Assembly (NCBI GenBank): GCA_019242395.1
Contig: JAFAVP010000280.1
Coordinates: forward strand, 1 to 43,828
DNA from: Alphaproteobacteria bacterium
GTDB lineage: Bacteria > Pseudomonadota > Alphaproteobacteria > Micropepsales > Micropepsaceae
Reading direction: 5' to 3'
Length of the DNA: 43,828 nucleotides
Below the pieces are notes generated by a model. It searched no databases. It saw only the letters and a list, made by a program, of their open reading frames with translations, and had not been told where the DNA came from. The number at the start of each line of letters is the position of its first letter. The first letter of the stretch is position 1. Positions 5,450-38,350 of this stretch are shown here, one piece after another. A program made the translations under genes and the position numbers.

Positions 5450-7198
5450 ATGTCCGAAGCCTCACCCTCGAAACCGCCTTGGCCGGCCATGTCGATTGCC
5501 AAGGCGCATGCGCTGCTCACGCAGCCCGGCTCGCCCCTTGAAATGGCAGAGGTAGAGATCCGCGGGATCAAGACACGCGTTTGGAGGAATGCGCCGCCCA
5601 CCCTGCGCGAGTTGCTTGCGCATGCCCGCACAACTTACGGAGCGCGGGAATTACTCATCTATGAGGACGAGCGTGTCAGCTGCGAGGCGTTCTATCGCGC
5701 CGCCGTCGCCGTGGCTCACGAGCTGCAGAAGCAGGGCGTTCAAACGGGTGATCGGGTGGCGCTCATCATGCGAAACCTGCCTGAATGGCCGGCGATCTTC
5801 TACGGCGCGGGGATCATTGGTGCGATCATCACGCCGCTGAACGCGTGGTGGACCGGGCCAGAATTGGAATATGGCCTGGCCGATTCCGGCGCCAAAATCG
5901 CCTTCGTCGATGCAGAACGGTTGGAGCGCATTGCAGAGCACTTAATCAATTGTCCGGGCCTCAAGCGCATATATGTCAGCCGATACAGCGATGAGCTGCC
6001 CAACCCGTTGGCGGTACGGCTGGAAGCTGTGATCGGGTCCGTTGCTGCATGGAGCAATTTGCCGGAGCGCCCGCTGCCCGATGTGGCGCTCGATACAGAT
6101 GACGATGCCACGATCCTCTACACCTCCGGCACGACGGGAAAGCCGAAGGGCGCGCTCGGCACCTACCGCAACATGCTGTCGAATATCATGGCGTCGGGAT
6201 GTTCGGCGGCGCGCAACTATCTACGCCGGGGCGAGATGCCGCCGATCCCGAGCCCGAATGACCCGCAGCGCTGCTCGCTGCTCTCCGTCCCGTTCTTCCA
6301 TGCCACGGGCTGCTTCGCGGTCCTAAATCCGTCCGTATTCAGCGGCGCCAAGCTGGTGCTGATGCGCAAATGGGATGTTGAACTCGCCATGCAGCTGATC
6401 GAGCGCGAGCGCATCAACATGGCGGGTGGCGTGCCCACCGTTGCGTGGCAATTGCTGGAGCATCCCAATCGCCACAAATACGATCTCTCGTCACTGGAGA
6501 GCGTCGCCTATGGCGGCGCGCCCTCGGCGCCGGAACTAGTGCGTAGGATCAAGGAGAATTTCCCGAAATCGCTGCCCGGCAATGGCTGGGGCATGACAGA
6601 GACCTCGGCCACCTGCACGACGCATTCGGCCGAAGATTACGAGCACCGGCCCGATTCCTGCGGGCCTGCGGTGCCGGTGTGCGATCTCAAGATCATGTCC
6701 TTGGATGGCGGGCGCGAATTGCCGGTTGGGGAAGTCGGCGAGTTATGGGCGCGCGGGCCCAATATCGTGAGGGGCTATTGGAACAAGCCGAAGGAAACGG
6801 CGGAGACGTTCATCGGTGGCTGGGTGAAGACGGGCGATCTCGCGCGGCTCGACGAGGAAGGCTTTTGCTTCATCATCGACCGTGCCAAGGACATGCTGAT
6901 CCGCGGCGGCGAGAACATCTACTGTGTGGAAGTCGAGAACGTGCTGTATGAGCACCCCGCAGTAATGGATGCCGCGCTGGTCCCGATCCCGCACCACACG
7001 CTTGGCGAGGAGCCCGGCGCTGTCGTGCACCTGAAGCCTGGCATGCACGCGACCGAAGAAGATATCCGCGCCTTCGTTGCCGGCAAGTTGGCCGCCTTCA
7101 AGGTTCCAGTGAAAGTTGTGTTCTGGCCGGAAACCCTCCCTCGCAACGCGAATGGAAAAATCCTCAAGCAGGAGCTTAGAAAGGTTTTCGCTACCTAG
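5450..7198 (+). CDS. Acyl-CoA ligase / AMP-dependent synthetase
   Basis: This 582-residue ANL-superfamily enzyme activates a carboxylic acid to acyl-AMP and then acyl-CoA. The ATP-binding P-loop is Y224-TSGTTGKPKG. The adenylate motif GWGMTETSATCT is near residue 380, the hinge/ATP motif KTGDLARLDEEGF near 464, and the catalytic lysine of the C-terminal domain is K570 in PRNANGKILKQ. Layout and length match fatty- or aryl-acid CoA ligases, but the substrate is not clear. The ATG at 5450 has no strong ribosome site. A start at 5489 would keep all motifs, though the first 13 residues do not look out of place. It is followed 144 nt later by the aldolase/dehydrogenase gene on the same strand. Confidence 0.88.
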   Translation: MSEASPSKPPWPAMSIAKAHALLTQPGSPLEMAEVEIRGIKTRVWRNAPPTLRELLAHARTTYGARELLIYEDERVSCEAFYRAAVAVAHELQKQGVQTGDRVALIMRNLPEWPAIFYGAGIIGAIITPLNAWWTGPELEYGLADSGAKIAFVDAERLERIAEHLINCPGLKRIYVSRYSDELPNPLAVRLEAVIGSVAAWSNLPERPLPDVALDTDDDATILYTSGTTGKPKGALGTYRNMLSNIMASGCSAARNYLRRGEMPPIPSPNDPQRCSLLSVPFFHATGCFAVLNPSVFSGAKLVLMRKWDVELAMQLIERERINMAGGVPTVAWQLLEHPNRHKYDLSSLESVAYGGAPSAPELVRRIKENFPKSLPGNGWGMTETSATCTTHSAEDYEHRPDSCGPAVPVCDLKIMSLDGGRELPVGEVGELWARGPNIVRGYWNKPKETAETFIGGWVKTGDLARLDEEGFCFIIDRAKDMLIRGGENIYCVEVENVLYEHPAVMDAALVPIPHHTLGEEPGAVVHLKPGMHATEEDIRAFVAGKLAAFKVPVKVVFWPETLPRNANGKILKQELRKVFAT

Positions 7199-9728: not shown

Positions 9729-10877
9729 TCAGTGCGCTTCGTCCAATGCTTGGCTGAGATCGGCAATCAGATCGTCCGTGTCCTCGATGCCGACGGAGAG
9801 ACGCAGCAGGTCCGGCGGGCACGGGGTGTCCGGCCCTTCGACAGAGGCGCGATGCTCCACCAGGCTTTCGACACCGCCGAGCGATGTGGCGCGCTTCCAG
9901 ATGCGAATCTCCGCCGCCGTCGTGATGGCCGCCCGCTCGCCGCCAGCTACAAGGAGTGACAGCATGCCGCCGAAGCCGCCCTTCATCTGCCGCGCAGCAA
10001 TTTCGTGACCGGGGAAGTCCGGCAGTCCCGGATAGAGAACTGCGCGCACATGCGGGTGCTTGGTCATCGCCGTCGCAATCTTTTGCGCGCTCGCGCAGGC
10101 GGTTTTCACGCGCGGAAACAGAGTCCGCATGCCGCGCAACAACAGCCAGGATTCGAAGGAGCCGAGGATTCCGCCAAGCTGAATGCGGTTATTCCTGATC
10201 TTCGCCCAGAACTCATCGTCTGCCCGCGTAACGAGCGCACCCGCGACGATATCCGAATGCCCGTTCAGGTATTTCGTCGCGGAATGCATCACGATGTCGG
10301 CACCCAGTTCCAGCGGCTGCGTGATGACTGGCGTCGCGACTGTGGAATCCACCGCGAGTTTGGCACCGGCGGCACGCGCAATCTGCGCAAGGGCGGCGAT
10401 GTCGGTGATGTTCCACATTGGATTGCCGGGCGTCTCCGCCCAAACCAGTTTGGTGCGCCCCGGCTGCATGGCGCTATGAACTGCATTGAGATCGCCCATG
10501 TCCGCGAAATCAACGGCGATGCCCCAGGTGTCCGCGAAACCGGCAATCCAGTTGCGTAGCGACCAGTACATCACCTTCGGCGCCACCACGTGATCGCCGG
10601 GCGCGAGTGCCTGAAATACCGCGGTTGCTGCCGCCATGCCTGACGCGAACAGCAGCGCGTCAGCCCCCTTTTCCAGCGCCGCCAGCAACACCTCCGGTTG
10701 GTCGAAGGCCGGGTTGTCCGCGCGTGCATAATTTCGCCCGGAGCGATACTGATTGTCTTCGTCGCGCAGGAAGGTGCTCGACAGATGCAGCGGCGGCGCC
10801 ACCGCCCGCGTCTTCTCGTCGACCCAGCCGAGGCCTTGTGCGGCAATCGTGGCGGGCTTCATGTCGTCCATTCGCAT
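9729..10877 (-). CDS. PLP-dependent cystathionine lyase family enzyme
   Basis: This 382-residue protein belongs to the Cys/Met-metabolism PLP family (cystathionine gamma-synthase, beta- and gamma-lyases). The PLP lysine is K202 in MHSATKYLNGHSDI. Other family segments are TFLRDEDNQY...Y-A-R, FASGMAAATAVF (phosphate-binding loop, about residues 77-88), WAETPGNPMWNITD and SLGGVESLVEHRAS near the C-terminus. These fit a beta-lyase/MetC-like enzyme or related C-S lyase acting on cystathionine or similar thioethers; substrate specificity cannot be set by eye. Internal starts (MDDMKP, MKPATIAAQG) are also possible. It is divergent from the polyketide synthase gene, with about 110 nt between starts, and 2 nt upstream of the small TolA-labelled gene. 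Confidence 0.87.
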   Translation of the reverse strand: MRMDDMKPATIAAQGLGWVDEKTRAVAPPLHLSSTFLRDEDNQYRSGRNYARADNPAFDQPEVLLAALEKGADALLFASGMAAATAVFQALAPGDHVVAPKVMYWSLRNWIAGFADTWGIAVDFADMGDLNAVHSAMQPGRTKLVWAETPGNPMWNITDIAALAQIARAAGAKLAVDSTVATPVITQPLELGADIVMHSATKYLNGHSDIVAGALVTRADDEFWAKIRNNRIQLGGILGSFESWLLLRGMRTLFPRVKTACASAQKIATAMTKHPHVRAVLYPGLPDFPGHEIAARQMKGGFGGMLSLLVAGGERAAITTAAEIRIWKRATSLGGVESLVEHRASVEGPDTPCPPDLLRLSVGIEDTDDLIADLSQALDEAH

Positions 10878-10978: not shown

Positions 10979-10983
10979 AAGGA
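10979..10983 (+). promoter_or_regulatory. Ribosome binding site deciding the polyketide synthase start
   Basis: AAGGA within GAAGGAGAGC sits 4-5 nt before the ATG at 10988. It lies inside the first codons of the alternative ATG at 10976, so 10988 is the likelier start. Confidence 0.65.
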
Positions 10984-10987
10984 GAGC

Positions 10988-12025
10988 ATGGCCGCCACAC
11001 CGAGGCTGATTGCGTTGAAAACAGCAGTGCCGCCCTATCGCATCGATCAGGCCGATGCGGGGCGGCGGGCGGCGCACCTGTTTGCCAACCATCCGGAGGT
11101 GCTGCGGCTGCTTTCCGTTTTCCAGAACACCGGCATCGAGACACGCTACTCCTGTGTTCCGATCGATTGGTATCTGGAGCCGCACGGGTGGAAGGAACGG
11201 ACCAATCTATATCTCCAGAACTCAGTCGATCTCCTGGAGAAGGTTGCGAACGATTGCCTGGCAGAGGCGGGACTCGGCAGCGAAGATATCGATGCGATTG
11301 TCGTCGCCTCCACGACCGGTATCGCGACACCCAGCCTGGACGCACTGGTGATCGAGCGGATGGGCTTGCGCCGCGAGATCGAGCGCCTGCCCATGTTCGG
11401 GTTCGGCTGCGCTGGAGGTGTTTCCGGTCTGGCACGCGCGGCAGACATTGCGCGGGCCCGTATGGGATCTCGGGTGCTGTTCCTGGTCGTCGAATTGTGC
11501 GCGCTCACCTTCCGCAAGGATGACGTCTCCAAGAGCAACATCGTGGCCGCGGCCTTGTTTGGCGACGGCGCCGCGGGCGCTATCATCAGCAGCGAGGGCG
11601 ACGGCCCCGTGGTTGCCGCCAGCGGCAGCTACACCTGGCCAAATTCTCTCGATGTCATGGGGTGGGAAGTCGAGGAGGATGGGCTGAAGGCGCGCTTTGC
11701 GCAAAGCATTCCATCGCTTGTCGCCAATGATTTCCGCAACATCGCGGCTGGGTTTCTCAGGAAGAACGATATCGCGCGCGGCAGCATTGAGGCCTTCGCG
11801 TGCCATCCCGGTGGCGCCAAGGTTCTGGATGCACTGGAGGATGCGCTTAATCTGCCACACGGCGCCTTGAAGGACAGCCGCAGCGTGTTGCGGGATTACG
11901 GGAACATGTCCGCGGCGACCGCACTGTTCGTGCTGCAACGCATGCGTGCGCGCGGAGAGGGGCGCCGCTGCCTGATGAGCGCGCTGGGCCCCGGGTTCTC
12001 GGCCGCGTTCCTGATGCTGGAATGA
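10988..12025 (+). CDS. Type III polyketide synthase (chalcone synthase-like)
   Basis: This 345-residue thiolase-fold enzyme extends an acyl-CoA starter with malonyl-CoA and cyclises the product to a pyrone or resorcinol. The catalytic triad is visible: C141 in FGFGCAGGVSG, H273 in FACHPGGAKV and N306 in DYGNMSAAT. The spacing between His and Asn (33 residues) equals that in plant chalcone synthase. Size and motifs fit bacterial alkylpyrone/alkylresorcinol synthases. Start chosen from the GGAG site just before 10988. It overlaps the methyltransferase-like gene by 4 nt (ATGA) and leads a four-gene plus-strand set with a hydroxylase and an efflux pump. Starter chain length and product cannot be told from sequence. 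Confidence 0.92.
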   Translation: MAATPRLIALKTAVPPYRIDQADAGRRAAHLFANHPEVLRLLSVFQNTGIETRYSCVPIDWYLEPHGWKERTNLYLQNSVDLLEKVANDCLAEAGLGSEDIDAIVVASTTGIATPSLDALVIERMGLRREIERLPMFGFGCAGGVSGLARAADIARARMGSRVLFLVVELCALTFRKDDVSKSNIVAAALFGDGAAGAIISSEGDGPVVAASGSYTWPNSLDVMGWEVEEDGLKARFAQSIPSLVANDFRNIAAGFLRKNDIARGSIEAFACHPGGAKVLDALEDALNLPHGALKDSRSVLRDYGNMSAATALFVLQRMRARGEGRRCLMSALGPGFSAAFLMLE

Positions 12026-12519
12026 TTCCGTATATCATACTGGCGCTGGTGATTGCGCAGCGGCTGGCCGAGCTTTGGTATGCTGAGCGCAATACGCGGG
12101 CCCTGCTAGCCCGTGGCGCCATAGAGATCGGCCGCGCCCATTATCCGCTGTTCATCATTCTGCATACTGCCTGGCTGGTCGCCATCGTTCTGGCGCTGCC
12201 GCGGCCCGCATCGGCGCATTGGCTGCCGTTTGCCGGTTATGTGCTGCTTCAGTTGCTGCGCGTGTGGACTGTCGCCGCGCTAGGACCCTATTGGACCACC
12301 CGCATCGTTACCCTCCCCAACGCGCCATTGGTGCGGCGCGGGCCCTACCGCTTTATGCGTCATCCGAACTATCTTATTGTGGTTGGCGAGATCGCGCTGC
12401 TGCCGCTGGTGTTCGGGGAGGTGCGGGTGGCCATCGCGTTCAGCTTCCTGAACGCGGCGCTGTTATTCTGGCGCATTCGCGAGGAAGAAACGGCGCTTGC
12501 GCCACGTCTCAAGCGGTAG
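12022..12519 (+). CDS. Isoprenylcysteine carboxyl methyltransferase-like membrane enzyme
   Basis: This 165-residue integral-membrane protein has several hydrophobic helices and the ICMT signature near its C-terminus: RRGPYRFMRHPNYLIVVGEIALLPL (about residues 110-134), followed by RIREEETAL. This family transfers methyl from S-adenosylmethionine. In Bacillus subtilis the ICMT-like BpsB, encoded beside the type III synthase BpsA, O-methylates alkylpyrones, and this gene is coupled by a 4-nt overlap to the type III synthase here. I infer the same job: O-methylation of the polyketide in the membrane. Confidence 0.88.
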   Translation: MIPYIILALVIAQRLAELWYAERNTRALLARGAIEIGRAHYPLFIILHTAWLVAIVLALPRPASAHWLPFAGYVLLQLLRVWTVAALGPYWTTRIVTLPNAPLVRRGPYRFMRHPNYLIVVGEIALLPLVFGEVRVAIAFSFLNAALLFWRIREEETALAPRLKR

Positions 12520-12536
12520 AAGCGTCCCCACATCGA

Positions 12537-13604
12537 ATGGCAAGCATGGGTGTGTTGCGATATTCAGGGCCGTTCTGGTTCCTCGCCTCCATTCCCCTGC
12601 TTCATGCGTGGTCGGATGGAGGGCCGCTCCTCACGCCGGCCACGCTGTTGTGCACACTGCTGGTCGCGGAATATATCCCTCACAATTCTGTTGCTGAGCC
12701 GCCCTCCAGTTCCTATCGTCTGCTGCCGATTTTCTACATTCCCTGCCAGCTTCTCGTGATCGCGTGGAGTATTTGGCAATCGCACACCGCGACGACGCTC
12801 GGCTTTACGAGCCTGGTCATCTCGACCGGTGTGTGCACAGGCGTGTTCGGGGTGCTGGCAGCTCATGAGATGGTGCATAGCCGCGTTCGCTGGCACCGCC
12901 GGCTTGGCGCGCTCATGCTGACCGGCATGAGCTACCGTCACTTCCGCATCGCCCACGTGCATGGACATCATCGCTATGCCGCCACAGATCGCGATGCTTC
13001 CACCGCGCGGCTTGGTGAAGGTTTCTACGCGTTTTTCCTGCGAACGCTTGGCACCCAGATCGTGCAGGCCTGGCACTTCGAGCGGCGGCGCTGCCGCGGC
13101 AGGTGTCATCCATTCCTCGGCAATCGGATGGCGCACGATGCCGTAATCATCGTGCTTCTGTACGCCGGACCGCTGATTGCTTTCGGCTGGCGTGCGGCGG
13201 CTTTCCTCGCGGCGGAGAGCGCCGTCGCCATCCTGGTGCTCGAACTGTTCAACTATATCGCGCATTACGGATTGCGGCGAGAGATGCGAGACGGCCGGGT
13301 CGAACCGGTTGCGGCGCATCACAGCTGGAACAGTTCCGGGGCAGCCAACTTGCTCATCTTCAACATGGGACGGCACAGCGACCATCATCGCTCGCCGTCG
13401 GCCACTTACGAGGAACTGAAACCTGTTCTATGGCAGCCAGAATTGCCATACGGTTATGCTGGATCGATCCTACTCGCCCTGGTGCCCCCGCTGTGGCGGG
13501 CTGTGATGGACCCGCACGTGGCATTCCTCCGCGCATCCTCGCCAGAAATGGGTTACGTTCGAATCGAAGCAGCTTCGCCCAATTTCCGTGAACGAGCCGC
13601 TTAG
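12537..13604 (+). CDS. AlkB-like di-iron membrane hydroxylase
   Basis: This 355-residue integral-membrane protein has the histidine clusters of alkane 1-monooxygenases: H110-EMV-H114, H140-VHGHH-145, NYIAHYGL (239-246) and RHSDHH (279-284). In AlkB these ligate two irons that hydroxylate the terminal carbon of alkyl chains, with electrons from a rubredoxin, none of which is encoded nearby. Flanking hydrophobic stretches supply the membrane helices. A longer open frame begins at 12219, but it overlaps the preceding gene. ATG 12537 is preceded by an AGAAG-like site, and ATG 12546 is an equal alternative. Its 3' end overlaps the transporter gene by 17 nt. Context suggests the substrate is the alkyl tail of the neighbouring polyketide rather than free alkane; that is inference. 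Confidence 0.88.
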   Translation: MASMGVLRYSGPFWFLASIPLLHAWSDGGPLLTPATLLCTLLVAEYIPHNSVAEPPSSSYRLLPIFYIPCQLLVIAWSIWQSHTATTLGFTSLVISTGVCTGVFGVLAAHEMVHSRVRWHRRLGALMLTGMSYRHFRIAHVHGHHRYAATDRDASTARLGEGFYAFFLRTLGTQIVQAWHFERRRCRGRCHPFLGNRMAHDAVIIVLLYAGPLIAFGWRAAAFLAAESAVAILVLELFNYIAHYGLRREMRDGRVEPVAAHHSWNSSGAANLLIFNMGRHSDHHRSPSATYEELKPVLWQPELPYGYAGSILLALVPPLWRAVMDPHVAFLRASSPEMGYVRIEAASPNFRERAA

Positions 13605-15150
13605 CGAACAGCCTGTTCCTCTTGCCGCCTGGATCGGCTTCAGCGCCATGTGCGTCGGCATGTTCATCGCCGTGCTCGACATCCAGGTGGTGGCCAGCTC
13701 GTTGCCGAATATCTCGGCCGCGCTTGGCATTCCGCAGGACCGGCTGAGCTGGATCCAGACCTGCTACCTTATCTCGGAAATCATCGCCATCCCGCTGACC
13801 GGCGTGCTCACGCACACGCTCACGGTGCGCTGGCTGTTCGCCGGCGCCACGATTGGCTTCACGTTAGCGAGCATCGGATGCGCGGCAAGCTCCGGCTTCG
13901 CCAGTCTGATTGCCTTTCGCACGGTGCAGGGATTTTTCGGGGGCGCCCTGATTCCCACCGTTTTCACTACGGTATTCGAATTATTTCCGCGGCGGCGGCA
14001 TCCGCTGGCGACGGTAATCGCCGGCACCTTTGCCATGATCGCGCCGACCGTCGGTCCGGCTCTCGGGGGATACCTGACTGAGCATTACAGCTGGCACGCC
14101 ATCTTCCTGGTGAACGTTCTGCCAGGCCTCATAGTGGGATCGCTGGTGGCGCTTTGCATCCGTCTCGGCGAACCCGATTTGCGCGCGCTGAAGCAGCTTG
14201 ACTACGTCACCGTCCTTCTTGCGGCGATTTTCCTCGCCAGCCTCGAATTGCTTCTGAAGCAGGCGCCGAAGCAGCACTGGCATGGATGGTACATCGACAG
14301 CTTGCTGGCAGTGTGCCTAATTTCCTTCGCCCTGGCCGTTCAGCAGTGCCTGGCGCGTCAGGCGCCGTTCGTGAATCTGCGGCGGTTCAAGGATCGTGGA
14401 TTCTCCGTCGCCTGCCTTCTCAGCTTTATCCTCGGCATGGGGCTGTATGCTTCGACCTACCTGCTGCCGCTGTTCCTGGGTTTCGTACGCAAGCACACCG
14501 CCTTCGAGATCGGGGAGATCATGATGGTGGCTGGTGCTGTGCAACTCGTTTCAGCGCCGGCTGCCGCTTGGCTTGAGCCGCGCGTCAGCGGCAAGCGTCT
14601 AGTGGCGGTCGGATATACGCTGTTCGCGGCAGGTTTGTTAGCCAACGCTTTTTGCACGATCCACACGGATTTCAATGATTTGATCCTGCCCCAGGCGCTG
14701 CGCGGCGCGGGCATCATGTTCTGTATCCTGCCTTCTACCCGGTTAGCTCTGGAAGGCTGGCCAGAACTCGAGATTCCAGACGCCAGCGCCCTCTTCAACC
14801 TGATGCGCAATCTCGGCGGGGCCATCGGCATCGCGCTGGTCGATACGGTGGCCGAGCAACGGACTTCCGCCCACGTCACCGACCTCGTCAGCCGTTTGCA
14901 GGCCGGTGATGCGACAACCGCGCAGTCGATTGGACTGCCGACCTCAATGTTTCACGGCCAGGTCATGGGACCGGTCAGCGATCTTCTGAAGCAGATGATC
15001 GCCCCGATGGTGAACCGCGCCGCGCTAACCGCCTCCTTCAACGAAGCGTGGCTGCTGCTTGGCGCGCTCTTCCTGCCGAGCCTCATCGCGATTGCACTCC
15101 TGTCGCGGCGCGCATTTTCCGCCGCCGCCTATTCAGCTCGCAACGAATAG
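13588..15150 (+). CDS. DHA2-family (EmrB/QacA) MFS efflux transporter
   Basis: This 520-residue multi-pass permease is of the 14-helix drug:H+ antiporter class. The N-terminal motif FIAVLDIQVVASSLPNISAALG (about residues 27-48) is the DHA2 signature, followed by WIQTCYLISEIIAIPLTGVL and the FRTVQGFFGGALIPTVFT segment (motif C-like ALGGYLTEHYSW near 158-169). It starts with GTG at 13588, inside the end of the hydroxylase gene, so it is translationally coupled. No membrane-fusion (EmrA-type) partner is encoded next to it. Its place at the end of the polyketide/methyltransferase/hydroxylase set suggests it exports the product or protects the cell from it. It converges on the antiporter gene with an 18-nt overlap. 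Confidence 0.9.
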   Translation: MNEPLSEQPVPLAAWIGFSAMCVGMFIAVLDIQVVASSLPNISAALGIPQDRLSWIQTCYLISEIIAIPLTGVLTHTLTVRWLFAGATIGFTLASIGCAASSGFASLIAFRTVQGFFGGALIPTVFTTVFELFPRRRHPLATVIAGTFAMIAPTVGPALGGYLTEHYSWHAIFLVNVLPGLIVGSLVALCIRLGEPDLRALKQLDYVTVLLAAIFLASLELLLKQAPKQHWHGWYIDSLLAVCLISFALAVQQCLARQAPFVNLRRFKDRGFSVACLLSFILGMGLYASTYLLPLFLGFVRKHTAFEIGEIMMVAGAVQLVSAPAAAWLEPRVSGKRLVAVGYTLFAAGLLANAFCTIHTDFNDLILPQALRGAGIMFCILPSTRLALEGWPELEIPDASALFNLMRNLGGAIGIALVDTVAEQRTSAHVTDLVSRLQAGDATTAQSIGLPTSMFHGQVMGPVSDLLKQMIAPMVNRAALTASFNEAWLLLGALFLPSLIAIALLSRRAFSAAAYSARNE

Positions 15151-17334
15151 GATCGCGCCGTTCCATCTCTGCATCAGGGCTGCGGCCGTGTTGCCGAAGA
15201 ACAGCACGTCACCCGGCCTGCGGTTGACGCCCATGACGATCAGGCCCTGGGTATCTGCGGCTTGCCGCAAAATTCGGGTTTCCGTGAGTTCGCTGCGGGC
15301 AATGCGTGTTTCCACATCCAAATCGTAACGCGAACCGAGCTGCGCGATGTCCCGCAGCACTGCTTCCTGGCTGCGCCGGGTCCGCTGGCCCGGTATTTCG
15401 CCGCGCGGTGCCACGTAGACCGCGTGCGCTCGCGCCTGCGCCGCGCGGGCGATCACAAAGCCGACCTCTGCGCCACGCCGCGAAACATCCGTGCCCGTGA
15501 TGGGAATGAAAATCTCCGTAAGACCGGCTTCGCCCTGCTCCGGTGCTACGAACACCGCAAATGGGCCTTCGAAGCCTTCCACTAGGTCGGTAATCTTTTT
15601 CGTGAAGCCGCCATCCGGCGTACGCGTCGCGTCGATGCCGACGAAGAAGAAGCCGTAGCCCTTGCGCGAGAGCTCTCCAACCAATTCCGGTGTTTTCACG
15701 GGTGGCGTTGCTTGTGTCGTGATGTCCACCGGCCGCGGCGCTTCCTGCTCGACCTGCTCGGCGGCGGCCGCGGCTTGCGTCGCGCTCTGTTTGGCTTCTT
15801 CCACATGGGCTTGAGGATTGGCTGCCGTGGCAGCCCGCCGCTGCTCCACCTGCATCACCGTGAGCGGCATCCCGCGAACACCCGCGAGGTATCCCGCCAG
15901 CCGAGCGGCGAATTTCCCAGTAGGGCTGTCGTCCACCGCCAGCAGAACGCGCTCGATCTTGGCGACGAACCCGCGGGCATCGATTTCCTCCCGTTCCAGC
16001 CGCGTCTGCTCTTCCTTGCTCATCGGCAAGCGAGCGAGCGCGTATCGCAGCATGGGCGGCATCGCCATCGTGGTCACCACGGCCATCGTGACGATCATCG
16101 TGAAGAGGTTCTGGGTGAGTGCGCCCATGGTCAGACCGATGGTGGCGACGATCACCTCGGTCGAACCGCGCGCATTCATGCCGCAGCCGAGTGCAAGGGA
16201 CTCGCGCAAGGACATGCCGCTCAGTTTGCCGCCCGCAAAGGCGCCGCTGAACTTTCCGATGCTGGCGATTGCCACGATGACGGCAGTGAGGCCGAGCAGT
16301 TGCGGCTGACCGAGAATGGAGAGGTCCGCGCTGATGCCCGCCTGACCGAAAAATACGGGCATGAAGAGGGCCGCCACTAGGCCGCGCAGTTGCTGCTGGA
16401 TGTGTTCCGTGAGGATGGGAGATTCACCGACCAATATGCCGGCCACAAAGGCGCCAAGCACGGTCTGCACACCCAACCCATAGGTGATGAGCGACATCAC
16501 GCCCATGATCACAAGAATTGCGGTGACCACCGCGAACTCGCTGCTGAACCTGTCATTGGCCCAGCGGATGATGCGGAAGACCGCGTACTGCCCGACCGTG
16601 AAGCTCGCCAGAAGGAAAAGTCCGACGCCGCCAACTGTCTTCAGCAATGACATGGCGTCGACGCCGCCGGTCCGGGCGATCCCGAAGGTGATGGCAATGA
16701 TCACCCAGCCGATCGAATCCTCGATGATTGCCGAGGCGACGATCACCTGCCCCAGGTTTCGTCGCATGAAGTTCATTTCGCGTATGACGCTGGCGACGAT
16801 TTTCACCGAGGAAATGGAAAGTGCCGTGCCGAGGAAGAGCGAACTCACCAGGCGATGGCCTCCAGGCAGGAGCGTGGCCGGCAGGAACTGCCCCAATGCA
16901 AACCCGCAGGCGAACGGCAGCGCGATTCCAGTCAGAGATACCGCCGTCGCCGTTGCGCGCGCGCGCCGCACCAGCCGCAGATCCGTTTCCATTCCCGTCA
17001 GCAGCAGAAGAAGCAGAACGCCGAATTGCGCGATGGCAGCGATCATAGCCTTCTGGGAAGGCTCGTGCGGGAAGATCAGGTCATGCGCATAAGGCCATAG
17101 CTTGCCGAAGACCGAGGGGCCAAGCAGCACGCCGGCAAGCAGTTGCCCCACAATGGTCGGCTGCCCGATCCGCAACATCAACTCGCCGAGGAGCCGGCCC
17201 ACCGTGACGAGCAGTACGATCTCGGCCACGAGCACGGCCTCATCCAGGCCCGGTGTCTTGCCGCCGGCTTTGGCCAATGCGAGTCCCGGCAGCAGCACAA
17301 GCGCGAGCGCCAACGGCCATAACCATCGTCTCAT
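15133..17334 (-). CDS. CPA2 cation:proton antiporter with C-terminal USP-like domains
   Basis: Starting at 17334, this 733-residue protein has a signal-like first helix (MRRWLWPLALALVLLPGLALA), a 12-13-helix CPA2 exchanger domain (about residues 30-430) and a cytoplasmic tail. Family segments are GQPTIVGQLLAGVLLGPSVFG, LLLLLTGMETDL, and GCGMNARGSTEVIVATIGL. The tail begins with a universal-stress-like strand (IERVLLAVDDSPTGKFAARLAGYL), then an Ala/Glu/Gln-rich linker, then a second USP-like region ending GVNRRPGDVLFFGNTAAALM. No TrkA-N domain is seen. Likely role: Na+ or K+/H+ exchange with nucleotide- or stress-sensing tail. An in-frame ATG at 17457 also has a GGTGGAG site, but it would add 41 charged residues ahead of the signal-like helix. 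Confidence 0.88.
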   Translation of the reverse strand: MRRWLWPLALALVLLPGLALAKAGGKTPGLDEAVLVAEIVLLVTVGRLLGELMLRIGQPTIVGQLLAGVLLGPSVFGKLWPYAHDLIFPHEPSQKAMIAAIAQFGVLLLLLLTGMETDLRLVRRARATATAVSLTGIALPFACGFALGQFLPATLLPGGHRLVSSLFLGTALSISSVKIVASVIREMNFMRRNLGQVIVASAIIEDSIGWVIIAITFGIARTGGVDAMSLLKTVGGVGLFLLASFTVGQYAVFRIIRWANDRFSSEFAVVTAILVIMGVMSLITYGLGVQTVLGAFVAGILVGESPILTEHIQQQLRGLVAALFMPVFFGQAGISADLSILGQPQLLGLTAVIVAIASIGKFSGAFAGGKLSGMSLRESLALGCGMNARGSTEVIVATIGLTMGALTQNLFTMIVTMAVVTTMAMPPMLRYALARLPMSKEEQTRLEREEIDARGFVAKIERVLLAVDDSPTGKFAARLAGYLAGVRGMPLTVMQVEQRRAATAANPQAHVEEAKQSATQAAAAAEQVEQEAPRPVDITTQATPPVKTPELVGELSRKGYGFFFVGIDATRTPDGGFTKKITDLVEGFEGPFAVFVAPEQGEAGLTEIFIPITGTDVSRRGAEVGFVIARAAQARAHAVYVAPRGEIPGQRTRRSQEAVLRDIAQLGSRYDLDVETRIARSELTETRILRQAADTQGLIVMGVNRRPGDVLFFGNTAAALMQRWNGAILFVAS

Positions 17335-18205
17335 GCGGAGCTCCACCCGGGTGGGCTCCCGTCCCGGCAGGTCCTGAATGCGCGCGTATTCTCCAGGCAG
17401 CGGCCGTGCTCTTTCACGATCTCGGGCTGTGCTGGAGGACAAGTTCTGGTGGATCATTTCAGCTGCTCCACCATAGCCTGGTGCGTTCCGCTTCCCCTTT
17501 GTGGGGGGAAGCTGTCAGCGGCCGCGCCAGCGTCGGACGACGGGAGAGGGAGGGATTTTCACGCGGACGCGCGGAGGCGCGGAGGGCAGTACTTGCTTTC
17601 ACCTGCCCCGGCGCGGGGAGACCGCTTCGTCTGAGCGAAGCAAAGATGAAGCGGGTGGGGGGCTTGCTCGAACTGAATTCCTCCCACCCCGAGCATTTCT
17701 CACGCTGTGCGAAATCCTCCGACCTCCCCGCATGGGCGGAGGTGAACGCTACATCTCGGCGGGCCTGCCCAAAAACCACATCATCTTGATCTTTGTTTTC
17801 ATGGAATCGCGCTGCCCCCTCCCCCCTGCCAACTAGAGTTCCCATTCGAACCTTCGGTGATCGAGGGGGGGCTCCACACCTTCCATCCTCGGCCGAGCGG
17901 CGCCGCAAAGGACGGTAGAACGGGTTCGGCAACCTAAAGCCGCGAGGGGACGGGAACCCAGGAGGCGGAGCTTGGGTGATCTTGAAAGGTAGGGACGCGG
18001 ATGCGCCCTCGCTCGGGCGCCCCGGAAAGCTGAACCACCTGAATCCCCTTCCTCCGAAGCGCGCGCGACCACGCGGTTCTCACCGGGGATGATCATCTGG
18101 CTATGAACCCGCACCCAAACCTCATCGCTGTAACCGTTGCATTTATACCACAGTGGCTCTGCAGAACGCAAGCTCCAAGGCCTCTACCCACCAAGGCCGT
18201 CTTGC
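17335..18205. other. Long intergenic stretch without a credible gene
   Basis: Beyond the possible 123-nt upstream extension of the antiporter gene, I see no gene here. Open frames at 17459-17932 and 17833-18171 (minus) are Arg/Pro-rich, lack ribosome sites and show no domain. The stretch holds dyads: GCTTCCCC/GGGGAAGC (17490-17512), ACCTCC/GGAGGT (17722-17743), GCGCCC/GGGCGC (18003-18020) and GATGATCATC (18088-18097). The 17690-17750 part resembles GC-rich interspersed repeats that give spurious proteins in alphaproteobacteria. A structured RNA around 17940-18100 cannot be excluded, but I recognise no family. Confidence 0.55.
17490..17512. repeat. Palindromic hairpin element
   Basis: An 8-bp perfect stem, GCTTCCCC and GGGGAAGC, encloses a 7-nt loop (17498-17504). 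It has no T-tract and lies upstream of the antiporter gene rather than at a gene end, so a repeat-type or 5'-leader element is likelier than a terminator. Copy number elsewhere is unknown. Confidence 0.5.
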
Positions 18206-18926: not shown

Positions 18927-21900
18927 ATGCCAGCGCCAAGAATTTGCCATATCGGCCGCGCGGAGAGGGCCGGAAGCGCGTGGCAGACTCTCGAGCGCGC
19001 TAAGGACCTTGGCTTCGACACGGTACTGACAGCGGCCGGCTCCGAGTCCGCAGGCGGCTACGCCGTGCTGGCACGGGCATGCGAAAGCCGCGGCCTGTCT
19101 CTCTTCATCGACCTCAACGTGCAGGAGCTCGACCTGCATCATCCGCTGGTCGAGCAGTATCCGGATGCCTTCGCGATCCGCCGCCACGGTGAGGCGGGCA
19201 GCGTGGTGGACCCACGCCATCCCTCACCGGGCCAAGGATGTGCCCTGCTGCGCGAGACGGCGGACCCAGCTCCTCTTGTGGAATGGTGGTCGGAGCAAAT
19301 TGCAGAATGGGTGAGAGCCGGAGCGCGCGGTTTTCGGATGCTGAGGCCGGCCACCACGCCGCGCCGCTTTCGCGAAGCTCTGATCGAGCGGGCGCTGGGC
19401 CAAGGCTCAAACCGCGTCACGTTCATCGCGGACACGACGGGCGAACCGCGCGACCGCGTCGCCCGCCTTGCAGGGTTCGATTACTGCCTGTCCTCCTTGC
19501 CGTGGTGGGATGGCCGGAGCAGGTGGTTGGTAGAGGAATATGAGGCCCTGTCGCATGTTGCCCCGCTGATCGCGCAGGTGGAATCGCCGGCCAAGCTGCC
19601 GCCCGCCTCCTCGCGCCAACGCTGCGGACGGCTGGCGATCGGCCTTGTGACCGGCACGGGGCTCATGGTGCCGCTCAGCTACACAGAACCGGCCGCGGAA
19701 GGCGAAGACGGCGTTGATCTTGGCGCCGCAATCCGAGGTGCCAATGAGTTCGTCGCCACCACGCAATGGGTCAACGGGCAGCTGAAAAGTCTGACCGGCG
19801 CCGGTGCACCGATCACCGTTCTGCTGCGGGCCGACGGCCGTGACGCGCGGCTAGCTAAGGACGCGCTGGTGGCGTTGATCAATCCCGACCCCACCGTGGC
19901 GGCTGAGCCCACAACAGAACTTCTCGGCAGCCTTGGCGCATTCGGCAAACTCGAGCCGGCCGGCAGTTTCTGCGGCGACGGCATCAAGCTGAAGCCGGGC
20001 GAAGCGCGTCTCTATCGCGCCAAGCGGGCGAAGCCCATTGTGATTTCCGGAAAGGCTGCGGAGCGCGATGTGAACACAGCGGTCGAATCGCCGCGGGTGA
20101 TCATCGCCAATGTGTCTCCCGCGGTGGATGACGGCGCCTTCGCCGTGAAAGCCATTGTCGGGCAGCGCCTCAGCATCGAGGCCGACATCTTGACGGACGG
20201 CCATCCCGTTCTCGCGGCAGAGTTGCAGTACAAGGCGGAGGGCGAACGCAACTGGCAGCTTGCGCGCATGCGTCCCCTTGCGAACGACCGCTGGCAGGCG
20301 GTGATGCCGCTCGATCGCATTGGCCGCCATGTCTTCGCCATTGAAGCCTGGATCGACGAATACGGCAGCTTCGTGCGCGATCTGCGCAGGAAGCGGGACG
20401 CCGGTCTCGATCTCTCGCTGGAGATTCAGGAAGGCCAACAACTGTTGGACGAGGCCAAACAGGGCGCGAACGGCGTCTGTGCCCAAGCCCTTGGTGCAAT
20501 TCTGCGCGGATTTGAGGGGCTCTCTACTTCTGATCGCGTCGCACTGCTGCTTGCGCCGGAAACCGTGGAGACGATGCACCGGGTAGATACGCATAGATTT
20601 CACGCGCGCACCGGCAGTTACCCTATCGACGCGGAGCGCAAAGAGGCAGCGTTTTCCAGCTGGTATGAGCTGTTTCCCCGCTCGGAGACAGAAGATGCCG
20701 CGCGACACGGTACCTTCCGCGATGTCATCGCGCGCCTGCCGGCCATTCGGGACATGGGTTTTGACGTCGTGTATTTCCCGCCGATTCACCCGGTGGGGAA
20801 AACCAATCGCAAGGGCCGCAATAACGCGCTGAGGGCCGAACCGAATGATGTCGGCAGTGTGTACGCGATTGGCTCCACCGACGGCGGGCACGATGCCATC
20901 CATCCGCAGCTTGGAACTTTGGATGATTTCCGCGCCCTGGTGGCATCCGCGCGAGAGAATGGGCTCGAACTCGCGCTGGACCTTGCCGTGCAGGCCTCGC
21001 CCGATCATCCGTGGCCGAGCGAGCATCCGGGCTGGTTCGATTGGCGGCCGGACGGCACGATCAAATACGCCGAGAACCCACCCAAGAAGTACGAAGACAT
21101 CGTCAACGTCGATTTCTATGCCAAGGATGCCGTGCCGGAGCTCTGGACCGCGCTGCGCGACGTGGTGCTGTTCTGGATCGAGCAGGACGTAAAGATTTTC
21201 CGGGTCGACAACCCGCACACCAAGCCCTTCCCGTTCTGGCAATGGCTGATCGCGGATGTGCGCGGCAGCCATCCCGATGTGATCTTCCTCTCGGAAGCAT
21301 TCACGCGGCCCAAGGTGATGTACCACCTCGCCAAGCTCGGCTTCTCGCAATCCTACACCTACTTCATTTGGCGCAACACGAAGCAGGAGCTGACGCAGTA
21401 TATGCGCGAGCTGGCCTCGCCGCCGGTCTCGGATTTCTTCCGTCCCCACTTCTTCGTCAACACGCCGGATATCAACCCGCACTTCCTGCAAGGTTCGGGA
21501 CGCGCCGGCTTTCTGATCCGCGCGGCACTTGCCACCACTCTTTCCGGATTGTGGGGGATGTATTCAGGCTACGAGCTCTGCGAATCCGCCGCTCTTCCGG
21601 GGCGGGAGGAGTACCTGGATTCCGAAAAATACGAGATTCGGCCGCGCGATTGGAATGCACCCGGCAACATCGTTCGCGAAATCACGCAGCTGAATCGTTT
21701 GCGCAAGGCCGAGCCGGCACTCCAGTCGCATCTGGGGCTGACCTTCTATAACGCATTCAACGACAACATTCTTTATTTCGGCAAGTCCGCGCCGGGCCAC
21801 GCCGATCGCATTCTTGTGGCCATCAGCCTCGATCCTCACGACGCGCAGGAAGCGGATTTCGAGATCCCGCTCTGGGAATGGGGCCGCGCCGATCATGAAG

Positions 21901-22025
21901 TCCTCGAATGCGAAGACCTGCTCAACGGCTCCGCTTGGATTTGGCGCGGCAAGATCCAGCACATGCGCCTGACACCTGAGACGCCATACGCCATCTGGCG
22001 CGTGCAGCCGGCGCGAGAGGTCTGA
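18927..22025 (+). CDS. glgE: GlgE, alpha-1,4-glucan:maltose-1-phosphate maltosyltransferase with N-terminal extension
   Basis: This 1032-residue GH13_3 enzyme adds maltosyl units from maltose-1-phosphate to the non-reducing end of linear alpha-glucan. The catalytic nucleophile is D761 in FRVDNPHTKPFPFW and the acid/base E790 in FLSEAFTRP. Their 29-residue spacing equals that in Streptomyces GlgE (D394/E423). Other family segments are YELFPRS, FPPIHPVGKTNRKGRNN and YKYAENPPKKYEDIVN-like sequence. The standard GlgE portion begins near residue 410. The first 365 residues form an additional degenerate GH13-like barrel that lacks catalytic acids. ATG 18927 has GAGGA 5 nt upstream; an ATG at 18864 would add 21 unlikely residues. 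The stop shares one base with the treS-mak start, so translation is coupled. Its substrate is made by the next gene. Confidence 0.93.
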   Translation: MPAPRICHIGRAERAGSAWQTLERAKDLGFDTVLTAAGSESAGGYAVLARACESRGLSLFIDLNVQELDLHHPLVEQYPDAFAIRRHGEAGSVVDPRHPSPGQGCALLRETADPAPLVEWWSEQIAEWVRAGARGFRMLRPATTPRRFREALIERALGQGSNRVTFIADTTGEPRDRVARLAGFDYCLSSLPWWDGRSRWLVEEYEALSHVAPLIAQVESPAKLPPASSRQRCGRLAIGLVTGTGLMVPLSYTEPAAEGEDGVDLGAAIRGANEFVATTQWVNGQLKSLTGAGAPITVLLRADGRDARLAKDALVALINPDPTVAAEPTTELLGSLGAFGKLEPAGSFCGDGIKLKPGEARLYRAKRAKPIVISGKAAERDVNTAVESPRVIIANVSPAVDDGAFAVKAIVGQRLSIEADILTDGHPVLAAELQYKAEGERNWQLARMRPLANDRWQAVMPLDRIGRHVFAIEAWIDEYGSFVRDLRRKRDAGLDLSLEIQEGQQLLDEAKQGANGVCAQALGAILRGFEGLSTSDRVALLLAPETVETMHRVDTHRFHARTGSYPIDAERKEAAFSSWYELFPRSETEDAARHGTFRDVIARLPAIRDMGFDVVYFPPIHPVGKTNRKGRNNALRAEPNDVGSVYAIGSTDGGHDAIHPQLGTLDDFRALVASARENGLELALDLAVQASPDHPWPSEHPGWFDWRPDGTIKYAENPPKKYEDIVNVDFYAKDAVPELWTALRDVVLFWIEQDVKIFRVDNPHTKPFPFWQWLIADVRGSHPDVIFLSEAFTRPKVMYHLAKLGFSQSYTYFIWRNTKQELTQYMRELASPPVSDFFRPHFFVNTPDINPHFLQGSGRAGFLIRAALATTLSGLWGMYSGYELCESAALPGREEYLDSEKYEIRPRDWNAPGNIVREITQLNRLRKAEPALQSHLGLTFYNAFNDNILYFGKSAPGHADRILVAISLDPHDAQEADFEIPLWEWGRADHEVLECEDLLNGSAWIWRGKIQHMRLTPETPYAIWRVQPAREV

Positions 22026-25000
22026 TGCCGCCACGTCGCGCGAAATCGGCGCTCAAGCCGAACCCGCTTTGGTACAAGGACGCGGTTATCTACCAGGTGC
22101 ACGTGAAGTCGTTTTACGATTCGAATGGCGACGGTGTCGGCGACTTCCCAGGGCTGATCGAGCGATTGGATTACATCGCCGAACTGGGCGTGAATGTCAT
22201 CTGGCTGCTGCCGTTTTATCCTTCTCCGCGCCGCGACGACGGGTACGATATCGCAGAGTACCGCGAGGTACATCCGGAATACGGCACGCTTGCCGATGTG
22301 CGGCGGCTCATCGAGGAAGCGCACGCGCGCGGCATCCGCATCATCACCGAGCTGGTGATCAACCATACCTCGGATCAGCACCCGTGGTTCCAGCGCGCCC
22401 GCCGCGCCAAGTCCGGTTCCAATTATCGTAACTACTACGTCTGGTCGGACGACGACAAAAAATATTCCGGCACGCGCATCATTTTCTGCGACACCGAGAA
22501 ATCCAATTGGACATGGGACGATGAAGCGAAGGCCTACTACTGGCATCGCTTCTATTCGCACCAGCCGGACCTGAATTTCGACAACCCGCAGGTGTTCCGC
22601 GCCGTGATGAGCGTCATGCGCTTCTGGCTCGACATGGGCGTGGACGGTCTGCGCCTTGATGCGGTGCCCTATCTGGTGGAGCGCGAAGGTACGAATAACG
22701 AAAACCTGCCGGAGACGCACGCCATCTTGAAGCGCATGCGCAAATTCATCGACGAGCATTACGAAGATCGCATGCTGCTCGCCGAAGCCAATCAATGGCC
22801 GGAGGACATCCAGGCCTACTTCGGCGCGGCCGAGGGCGACGAATGTCATATGGTGTTCCACTTCCCGCTGATGCCGCGGATGTACATGGCCGTGGCGCAG
22901 GAAGACCGCTTTCCGATTACCGACATCATCCGGCAGACGCCTGATCCGCCGCCCAAATGCCAGTGGGCCATCTTCCTGCGCAACCATGACGAGTTGACGC
23001 TCGAAATGGTGACGGATCGCGAGCGGGATTACCTGTGGAACGTCTATGCCGCGGACCGGCGTGCGCGGCTCAATCTCGGTATCCGCCGCCGTCTGTCACC
23101 GCTGCTGGAACGGGATCGCCGCCGCATCGAATTGATGAATTCGCTCCTGCTCACCATGCCCGGTACGCCCATAATTTATTACGGCGACGAGATCGGCATG
23201 GGCGACAACATCCATCTCGGCGATCGCGACGGCGTGCGCACGCCTATGCAGTGGTCATCGGATCGCAATGGCGGCTTCTCTCGCGCCGACCCTGCGGTGC
23301 TTGTGCTGCCGCCGATTATGGACCCGGTGTACGGCTACCAGGCGGTGAATGTGGAGGCGCAATGGCGCGATCCGCATTCGCTGCTCAACTGGCTCCGCCG
23401 CATGCTGGTGGTGCGTAACAAGCATCATGCGTTCGGCCGCGGCAGCATCCGTTTTCTCACGCCGCAGAACCGCAAGGTGCTCGCCTATTTGCGCGAGTTC
23501 GAAGGGAAATCGATCCTGTGCGTGGTGAATGTGTCCCGTGCCGCGCAAGCGGTGGAATTGGACCTTCACGAGTTCGCCGGCCGCACGCCCGTGGAATTGC
23601 TCGGCGGCGCCTCGTTCCCGCTCATCGGGCAGCTTACGTATCTCCTTACCCTGGCGCCATATGGCTTCTATTGGTTCGCGCTCAGCCAGGAAGCGCAGCC
23701 GCCACAATGGAGCACAGCAACCCTTGGACCCATGCTGATGGAACCTCGAACATTCGTTCTTCGCACCGCGCTTGCGCATGCGCTCGAAGGGCACAATCGC
23801 GAGATTCTCGAACGTGAAGTCCTACTATCGTACATCCCGCAGCGGCGCTGGTTTCAGGGCAAGAACGCTAGGATCGAGAGCGTGAGAGTGGCCGCCATGG
23901 CACCGCTACCGGGGCACGAACAGGACGCGGTGCTCGCCGATGTGGAAGTGGCCTCAGGCGAAACCACGAACCGCTACGCTCTACCGATGGCAATTGCCTG
24001 GGAGGACGAAGGCGCATGTCCATTCGAGGCGCCGCTTGCCTTTGCCCGGGCGCGCCGCGGGCGACGCGTGGGATTGCTGACCGACGGATTCGCCTCGGCA
24101 CGGTTTGCGCGCTCCATTCTTTCGAACCTCGCACGGAATGCATCCATTCCTTTCGGGGACGGAGAGATTCGCTTCCATGCAATGCCCAATACACGCCTCG
24201 ATGTGGCTCCTGATGCGGAGATCGAGTGGCCGCGCGCCGAGCAAAGCAACTCGACCTGCATCGTGGATCGCCGTGCGGTGATCAAGCTCCTGCGTCGCGT
24301 GACCGAAGGCATACATCCGGAAGCGGAGATGGGGCGGGTGCTGACGGAGCGCGGCTTCACCGGAATCGCGCCGATGTTCGGGGAAGTGGTCCGCACCAAT
24401 GCCGATGGCCCAAGCTCCGCCCTGGCCATTGTGCAAGGCTTCGTCGCAAATCAGGGCGACGGCAGCGCCTGGACGCGTGAGCTGCTTGCGCGCGTGATCG
24501 ACGAGCAGTCCGTCGCACCGGACGAGCGCAATCCTTTCGAAGCCTATGAAGAATTCGCGCGGGTGCTCGGACGCCGCACCGGCGAGATGCACGCCGTGCT
24601 GGAGCAGCCAACGGACGATCCCGACTTCGCACCGGAGGAGGCGAACGAACGAACTTTGCAGCATTGGAGCCAGCGCGCCGAGCGGCAGCTGGTAGATGCC
24701 TTTGCGGCGCTGGAACACTATTCCGGCAGCGAGCAATCACTGGTGGAGGATTTGGTGCGCCGCCACGATGAAATCGCGCACGGCGTTCGCACTCTTCTTT
24801 CCGAGGGCAGGGGCGCGCTCCGCACGCGCATTCACGGCGATCTTCATCTGGGCCAGGTTCTGGTGGCCGGCTCTGACGTGATCATTATCGATTTCGAAGG
24901 GGAACCGGTGAAGCCGCTGGCCGAGCGCCGCGCCAAGCTCTCGCCGATGCGCGACGTGGCCGGCATGATCCGCTCGTTCGATTACGCCGCCGGCATTGCG

Positions 25001-25291
25001 GAACGTGAAGGTCAGCTGTCGGCCGCCGGCCGCGCGCATGTGCGCGCGCACTCGTTGCTGAAGGAGTTCCGGCAAACAGCCAAGCGGACCTTCCTTGAAG
25101 GATACGCGGAAGGGCGCGGCAAACCACTGAGCGAAAAAGAACAACGGCTGCTCACCGCCTTCCGCATCGAAAAGGCGGCCTATGAAATTGTCTATGAGGC
25201 AGCCAATCGGCCGGACTGGATCGATATTCCGCTACGCGGTCTCAGCCGGCTGATCGCGCGTCTCACGCCTGAGCTTCAGCATGCTGAATAA
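22025..25291 (+). CDS. treS: Trehalose synthase-maltokinase fusion (TreS-Mak)
   Basis: This 1088-residue protein joins two steps. Residues 1-560 are trehalose synthase (GH13_16), which interconverts trehalose and maltose. It opens with [21 protein letters not shown]-type sequence; the catalytic residues are D212 ([10 protein letters not shown]), E254 (LLAEANQWP) and D322 (FLRNHDELT). Residues 570-1088 are maltokinase (Mak/Pep2), which makes maltose-1-phosphate from maltose and ATP. It has RRWFQGK near 613, and the kinase catalytic motif H937-GD939-LHLGQV followed by the metal site D956 in IIDFEGEP. Both halves look intact. The fusion delivers substrate directly to GlgE. It starts on the last base of glgE and overlaps glgB by 11 nt. 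Confidence 0.95.
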
Positions 25292-27488: not shown

Positions 27489-27489
27489 C

Positions 27490-36806: not shown

Positions 36807-37460
36807 TCAACCAGCCCCTCGAAGGCTGCCCCGCGGACCCTGCATCGTCCATGTGACGAGCGCTTCAGCCATGTCACCCGCGGCCTGACCGAAAGCTGCT
36901 GTTATGCTGGGCAGGTCGTTTGCAGAGGTTGGAACTTCGCGCTGGATTTCCGTGCCCCGAACAAGGTCGTGGGTGGGTGCGGCCACAAGCTTGGCGGCAA
37001 CGGCGACCTTTATCTTGGGGGGCGAATCAATAACTTCGTAGTAAGCGTGGAAGTTACGAATCTCCGTGGCAAGCACGTAGTCCGCCCGCAAACCTCCTCC
37101 CTCTCTTCCTACCGCTGAGACAGTCTGGCTCACCTCAAAGGCCTCTATCAGCAAGGATTGAAGCAGTAGCGGCAACCGGTCAGTCCATTGCGCATTTGCG
37201 AAGAAGTCCATCAGGTTGGGCGCGCGCTCTAAGGCAATACGCTGAGTATCCAAGACCTCTGGGGTCACTGGTTGCGCGACGACCAGCTGCCAAGGCAAAG
37301 GCGGCCCCTGCCGCATGGCAGAAAGGGCTGGGTGCAAAGCATAAATTTGCGGCGCCGGTGGAGGGCCGATCAAGTTCGTTCCGCAACCTGCTAGTACTAG
37401 AGCGGTGCCGCTCGTGAAGACAGCACGCCTGGTCAACTCCAAGGACGATCCAGCTTTCAT
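36807..37460 (-). CDS. PqiC-like ABC-transport auxiliary lipoprotein
   Basis: This 217-residue protein has a lipoprotein signal with lipobox LVLAGC (C26), preceded by a twin-arginine-like RRAVFTSG. The rest fits the ABC_trans_aux/PqiC family: an IYALHPA strand near the start, LVVAQPVTPEVLDTQRIAL and LLLQSLLIEAFEVSQTVSAV. Known members are outer-membrane lipoproteins that work with MCE-protein lipid transporters. It is the last gene of the mlaE-mlaF-mlaD run and overlaps mlaD by 4 nt, so it is probably the periplasmic or outer-membrane partner in place of MlaC/MlaA. Confidence 0.87.
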   Translation of the reverse strand: MKAGSSLELTRRAVFTSGTALVLAGCGTNLIGPPPAPQIYALHPALSAMRQGPPLPWQLVVAQPVTPEVLDTQRIALERAPNLMDFFANAQWTDRLPLLLQSLLIEAFEVSQTVSAVGREGGGLRADYVLATEIRNFHAYYEVIDSPPKIKVAVAAKLVAAPTHDLVRGTEIQREVPTSANDLPSITAAFGQAAGDMAEALVTWTMQGPRGSLRGAG

Positions 37461-38338: not shown

Positions 38339-38350
38339 CGAGTTCTCCTG

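Follow-up and report, generated by a model that had tools for sequence, protein, structure and literature searches.

A conserved type III polyketide synthase cassette in an alphaproteobacterial genus encodes an AlkB-like enzyme lacking two active-site glutamates

Results

Four adjoining genes encode a synthase, a methyltransferase, a membrane diiron enzyme, and an exporter

Here, we analyzed a 43,828-nt stretch of alphaproteobacterial DNA (the window), in which four genes follow each other on the forward strand at positions 10988-15150. The first (10988..12025), which starts with ATG and is preceded by a Shine-Dalgarno-like AAGGAG at 10979-10984, encodes a type III polyketide synthase (PKS) of 345 aa (Pfam PF00195/PF02797, Chal_sti_synt_N/C). 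The second (12022..12519) encodes an ICMT-family membrane methyltransferase of 165 aa (PF04140, 97.5 bits vs. a cut-off of 24), and the third (12537..13604), with an ATG start at 12537 and an alternative ATG at 12546, encodes a membrane diiron enzyme of the AlkB fold (PF00487, FA_desaturase superfamily, 106 vs. 30 bits). The fourth (13588..15150, GTG start) encodes a DHA2-family (EmrB-type) MFS exporter of 520 aa (TIGR00711, 352.8 vs. 230.2 bits; PF07690). The synthase and methyltransferase genes overlap by 4 nt (ATGA), 17 nt separate the stop codon of the methyltransferase gene from the start of the AlkB-like gene, and the AlkB-like and exporter genes overlap by 17 nt. Families were assigned using the curated cut-offs of Pfam and NCBIfam, all four of which are well exceeded. 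An earlier reading of this DNA, made from the sequence alone (the sequence-only reading), had described four intact adjoining genes with these spacings and had named the same four families; both descriptions are borne out.

A divergent gene for a Cys/Met-metabolism PLP enzyme (9732-10877, reverse strand) precedes the block, and a convergent gene of the Na+/H+ exchanger family (15136-17457, reverse strand) follows it. An AMP-binding acyl-CoA ligase-like gene (5450-7195, forward strand), a possible source of acyl-CoA, lies 3.8 kb upstream and outside the conserved block. Elsewhere in the window, a long run of same-strand genes of the alpha-glucan/trehalose type (18930-35853, forward strand) encodes GlgE domains, a long maltogenic-amylase/alpha-amylase protein, GlgB, and more alpha-amylase-family proteins, as identified in a domain scan without the gene at 31325-33325. 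By eye, the genes at 36810-40290 (reverse strand) resemble an Mla-type lipid-transport ABC system (MlaD-like protein, ATPase, permease, and lipoprotein).

The synthase and methyltransferase resemble enzymes that make methylated lipid polyketides

The catalytic residues Cys140, His272, and Asn305 of the synthase (numbered from base 10991) are invariant in an alignment of relatives, and its closest solved relative in a PDB search is PKS11 of M. tuberculosis (4jao). The product of PKS11 is methylated alkylpyrones, and PKS11 as well as the alphaproteobacterial RpsA use methylmalonyl-CoA (PMC6274091). The methyltransferase retains the ICMT motifs RHPNY and REEE. In nearly all complete relatives, within as well as outside the genus, an ICMT gene lies directly 3′ of the PKS gene and, by this adjacency, the ICMT-family enzyme is presumed to be a putative O-methyltransferase of the polyketide. 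A precedent for a synthase paired with a methyltransferase is BpsA/BpsB, for which triketide pyrones have been described together with their methyl ethers (PMC4901931; PMC5686519).

Trp281 of ArsB and Gly284 of ArsC act as a switch between pyrones and resorcinols and, when mapped by residue spacing, the corresponding residue of the window synthase is Trp225, i.e., resorcinol-like. However, PKS11, a pyrone maker, likewise has Trp at the position equivalent to ArsB Trp281; Trp225 therefore does not decide between a pyrone and a resorcinol. We also rejected the switch as a decisive test of product class on the grounds that the mapping was by spacing and that the AF2 model of the synthase (mean pLDDT 83.7) is unreliable at residues 225-233 (pLDDT <50). 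As judged from the genes that it contains, the cassette is most likely a pathway for a methylated alkylpyrone or alkylresorcinol with an optional oxidative tailoring step.

The cassette is conserved in the genus and its oxygenase was probably lost repeatedly

In a survey of 69 genomes of the window's genus, an orthologous synthase is present in 25 (including a partial match in G426) and a gene of the AlkB-like clade in 15, all of which are among the 25 synthase carriers (Fisher 6e-9, ignoring phylogeny). Within one genus, such co-occurrence is partly shared ancestry. The sequence-only reading had proposed a neighborhood search for the four families together. In 13/69 genomes, the four genes recur with their order unchanged, and the AlkB-like gene of 13 of the 15 carriers lies between the methyltransferase and exporter genes. 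In one of these genomes (G435, L160:5035-5546), the AlkB-like gene is a pseudogene in which the first 164 residues are gone and residues 165-333 are left in two frames; thus, 12 copies inside the cassette are intact. In the two other carriers (G425 and G433), the AlkB-like gene is on another contig, and the PKS, ICMT, and MFS genes are still together.

On its left flank, the block adjoins four different sets of neighbors, and dN/dS is 0.09-0.39 over the four genes (four pairs tested) and 0.17-0.33 for the oxygenase alone, showing that the oxygenase and the cassette are under purifying selection. Because the same gene order recurs in 13/69 genomes and in four left-flank contexts, and dN/dS is low, a chance juxtaposition of the four genes was ruled out. 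The proposal in the sequence-only reading of a BpsA/BpsB-type synthase/methyltransferase pair to which an oxygenase and an exporter have been added is likewise supported, and the four genes are inherited together.

Ten of the 25 synthase carriers are without any oxygenase and, with G435 added, 11/25 are without an intact copy. Because of these 11 genomes, the oxidation step looks optional at the level of gene content. Moreover, related PKS-ICMT-MFS cassettes without an oxygenase exist and, therefore, oxidation appears to be an add-on. In the PKS tree, the sister of G435 is G034, a genome without an oxygenase, and ∼67 oxygenase residues are left between the ICMT and exporter genes at L046:694-900; G034/G435 and L046 point to loss of the oxygenase. 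The PKS and oxygenase trees are largely congruent, consistent with an old acquisition of the oxygenase and several subsequent losses.

The AlkB-like enzyme retains nine histidines and has alanine in place of two glutamates

The AlkB-like protein matches FtAlkB (8f6t) with a phmmer E value of 7e-50, and its AF2 model (mean pLDDT 77.8) aligns with 8f6t/8sbb at a Foldseek TM score of 0.75-0.77. All nine AlkB histidines are kept in alignments. However, the motif NYxEHYGL reads NYIAHYGL, which puts Ala at the position of the AlkB Fe2-ligand glutamate, and the motif EHxxxHH reads AHVHGHH, i.e., its first glutamate is also Ala. In FtAlkB, Glu271 is a ligand of Fe2 located 3.2 Å from the substrate methyl group, and chain termini reach the diiron site from a membrane tunnel (PMC10113152). 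In a second AlkB structure, the conserved E281, which is taken to be the equivalent of Glu271, lies near an iron and has a poorly resolved side chain (PMC10110569). The statement in the sequence-only reading that all catalytic residues are present, thus, stands for the Cys/His/Asn residues of the PKS, the two ICMT motifs, and the nine histidines, but fails for the two AlkB glutamates. These two changes rule out a canonical AlkB with a full active site.

All 18 members of the clade (tree support 100/99) share the Ala/Ala pair, except that the second motif of G096 begins with Ser (SHLQGHH). By contrast, Glu is present at both positions in 23/23 homologue loci examined from a phylum-wide sample. 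Both glutamates are also missing (Ala/Gln) in XylM and in a Rhodobacterales group. In pWW0 XylM, the motifs read AHVNTHH and NYFQHYGL, and a gene for a 2Fe-2S protein adjoins xylM. In the tree, in which the deep branches are weak, XylM groups with a pNL1 homologue and Hydrocarboniclastica, apart from the window clade. Plasmid-borne relatives are distant AlkB/XylM homologues only, all with <60% identity.

Outside the genus, three of the four genomes with an Ala-type clade enzyme (G096, G449, and G451) have a PKS-ICMT pair elsewhere, and the fourth, the Caulobacteraceae bin G450, is without such a pair. The background is not negligible, as such synthases are found in 7/24 class-level genomes at E <1e-60. 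A conserved third gene was not found by eye in the PKS-ICMT pairs outside the genus.

Several other loci came to our attention. The Rhodobacterales loci L042-L045 contain another Glu-less AlkB-like group (DYVQHYGL) with a conserved neighborhood in which, by eye, ftsY is one of the genes; this protein is possibly no alkane hydroxylase. L037 and L040 are stand-alone Ala-type AlkB-like genes; close to that of L040, a related DHA2 exporter is encoded on the other strand. On a Paraburkholderia fungorum plasmid (L075:2145-3822), a fatty acid desaturase gene adjoins a gene for an autoinducer-binding domain near VirB-type secretion genes.

Rubredoxin is undetected in most carriers

Using the Pfam model PF00301, which a highly divergent protein could evade, rubredoxin, the electron donor typical of AlkB, was not detected in the window genome (99.6% complete) and in 10 other carriers. 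These 11/15 carriers include the single-contig genomes G028 and G439; rubredoxin is present in the other 4/15. Rubredoxin is, thus, unlikely to be the general partner of the AlkB-like enzyme. The window genome encodes 2Fe-2S domains, one of which is in a ferredoxin-like ORF directly 3′ of a 402-aa ORF that, by sight, resembles an FAD-dependent reductase.

Discussion

Here, we describe a conserved block of four genes that probably forms a self-contained lipid-polyketide cassette for synthesis, O-methylation, optional C-H oxidation, and export. The gene content, co-inheritance, dispensability of the oxygenase, purifying selection, loss of both glutamates, and lack of a detectable rubredoxin in most carriers are evident from sequence comparison. 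We suggest that the PKS11-like synthase, based on homology, would load a long-chain acyl-CoA, extend it with (methyl)malonyl-CoA, and cyclize the chain to a head of the alkylpyrone or alkylresorcinol type. As suggested by BpsB, the ICMT-like enzyme would then O-methylate a ring hydroxyl in the membrane. The AlkB-fold diiron enzyme, supplied with electrons by a non-rubredoxin donor such as a 2Fe-2S ferredoxin, would oxidize one C-H bond of the membrane-embedded product, most likely in a methyl group or along the alkyl tail, and the DHA2 pump would export the product.

The sequence-only reading had deduced ω-hydroxylation from the AlkB type of the enzyme. This deduction is not supported as stated: because both glutamates are absent and rubredoxin is undetected in 11/15 carriers, hydroxylation of the chain end cannot be assumed merely by analogy with AlkB. 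We consider the window enzyme AlkB-like rather than a demonstrated AlkB, with ω-hydroxylation as one possible activity. Because two acidic active-site residues are gone and most carriers have no recognizable usual donor, the altered enzyme may carry out a chemistry different from that of the usual alkane hydroxylases. More tentatively, the Ala/Ala clade could represent an unrecognized subfamily of AlkB-fold membrane diiron enzymes that is dedicated to lipid-polyketide tailoring. Its members would have an altered Fe2 site, draw electrons from a non-rubredoxin donor, and catalyze a reaction different from the terminal hydroxylation of alkanes.

Which bond would be oxidized, and when, can be read in several ways. 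A canonical AlkB-like ω-hydroxylase that adds a hydroxyl to the end of the methylated polyketide's alkyl tail would agree with the AlkB fold (TM 0.77 to 8f6t), the retained histidines, and a tunnel that brings chain termini to the diiron site (PMC10113152). Moreover, alkylresorcinols with hydroxylated chains are known, i.e., the loseolamycins, in which the hydroxyl comes from a hydroxylated starter (PMC7587189). Nevertheless, we regard this activity as doubtful, given that the Glu271 equivalent and the Glu of EHxxxHH are both Ala in the clade and rubredoxin is undetected in most carriers. A serious rival, if a speculative one, is XylM-like oxidation near the ring with a 2Fe-2S donor, either at the benzylic/allylic C1′, at a ring methyl derived from methylmalonyl-CoA, or on the ring. 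The XylM of pWW0 is also without both glutamates and is encoded next to a 2Fe-2S protein, the use of methylmalonyl-CoA by PKS11 and RpsA (PMC6274091) could supply the ring methyl, and an FAD monooxygenase accompanies PKS and methyltransferase in Acetobacteraceae (PMC8776678). On the other hand, XylM is not the closest relative of the window enzyme, and its second position is occupied by Gln instead of Ala. We regard ω-hydroxylation and XylM-like oxidation as about equally likely.

The acyl lipids that are mostly the substrates of the FADS superfamily would fit an oxygenase acting ahead of the synthase, by hydroxylation or desaturation of the fatty acyl starter. Rv1371, a fatty acid desaturase by homology annotation, is co-transcribed with pks18 (PMC13141999), and loseolamycin chains derive from hydroxylated starters (PMC7587189). 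However, with 11 related cassettes retained despite a missing or broken oxygenase, the PKS is seemingly independent of a modified starter, making this order of events rather unlikely. It is more improbable still that the AlkB-like gene is a coincidental neighbor, i.e., an unrelated lipid enzyme inside the cassette. While the oxygenase is absent or broken in 11/25 PKS carriers and unlinked in two, and some divergent clade members stand alone, 13/15 copies are linked, always in the same slot and in four flank contexts, and within the genus the oxygenase never occurs without the PKS and the trees are mostly congruent.

AlkB-type enzymes have been studied as alkane degraders. A clade with nine histidines but without the carboxylate ligand near the substrate represents a natural test of the role of that glutamate. 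Similarly, sister cassettes in which the oxygenase is present, absent, or broken amount to gene removals made by nature and can be compared directly by LC-MS.

The sequence-only reading knew of no characterization of the four-part combination, in agreement with our search of the open-licence literature, which leaves out most subscription papers and in which we found no publication on a type III PKS cluster with an alkane monooxygenase and no case of an AlkB-type enzyme inside a type III PKS pathway. The parts are known; for the four-gene combination and for the Ala/Ala clade, this literature yielded no description. In gene make-up and predicted product, the cassette resembles BpsA/BpsB of Bacillus subtilis, in which a type III PKS gene and an adjoining methyltransferase gene account for pyrones from long-chain acyl-CoA and their methyl ethers (PMC4901931, PMC5686519); BpsA/BpsB is described there as a two-gene operon, with no mention of an oxygenase or exporter. 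Synthase, methyltransferase, and oxidative tailoring are combined in the hidABC operons of Planctomycetota and in operons of Acetobacteraceae (PMC10896814, PMC8776678). In these operons, the tailoring enzyme is a flavoprotein (FAD oxidoreductase), whereas that of the window is a membrane diiron enzyme. The srsABC operon of Streptomyces is of the same type, with a type III PKS, a methyltransferase, and an FAD oxidoreductase. Compared by annotation, rv1371-pks18-rv1373 of M. tuberculosis also has a type III PKS gene co-transcribed with a desaturase-annotated gene (PMC13141999), but encodes a sulfotransferase where the window has the ICMT and exporter. The oxygenase itself shares the fold, the nine histidines, and ∼30% identity with the AlkB alkane monooxygenases (8f6t, 8sbb) and differs from them by Ala at both active-site glutamates and by the lack of a detectable rubredoxin in most carriers. 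With XylM of pWW0, it has in common the histidine motifs and the missing glutamates, and there a 2Fe-2S protein gene lies beside xylM; however, identity to XylM is only ∼26%, XylM has Gln instead of Ala in NYxxHYG, and its context is catabolic.
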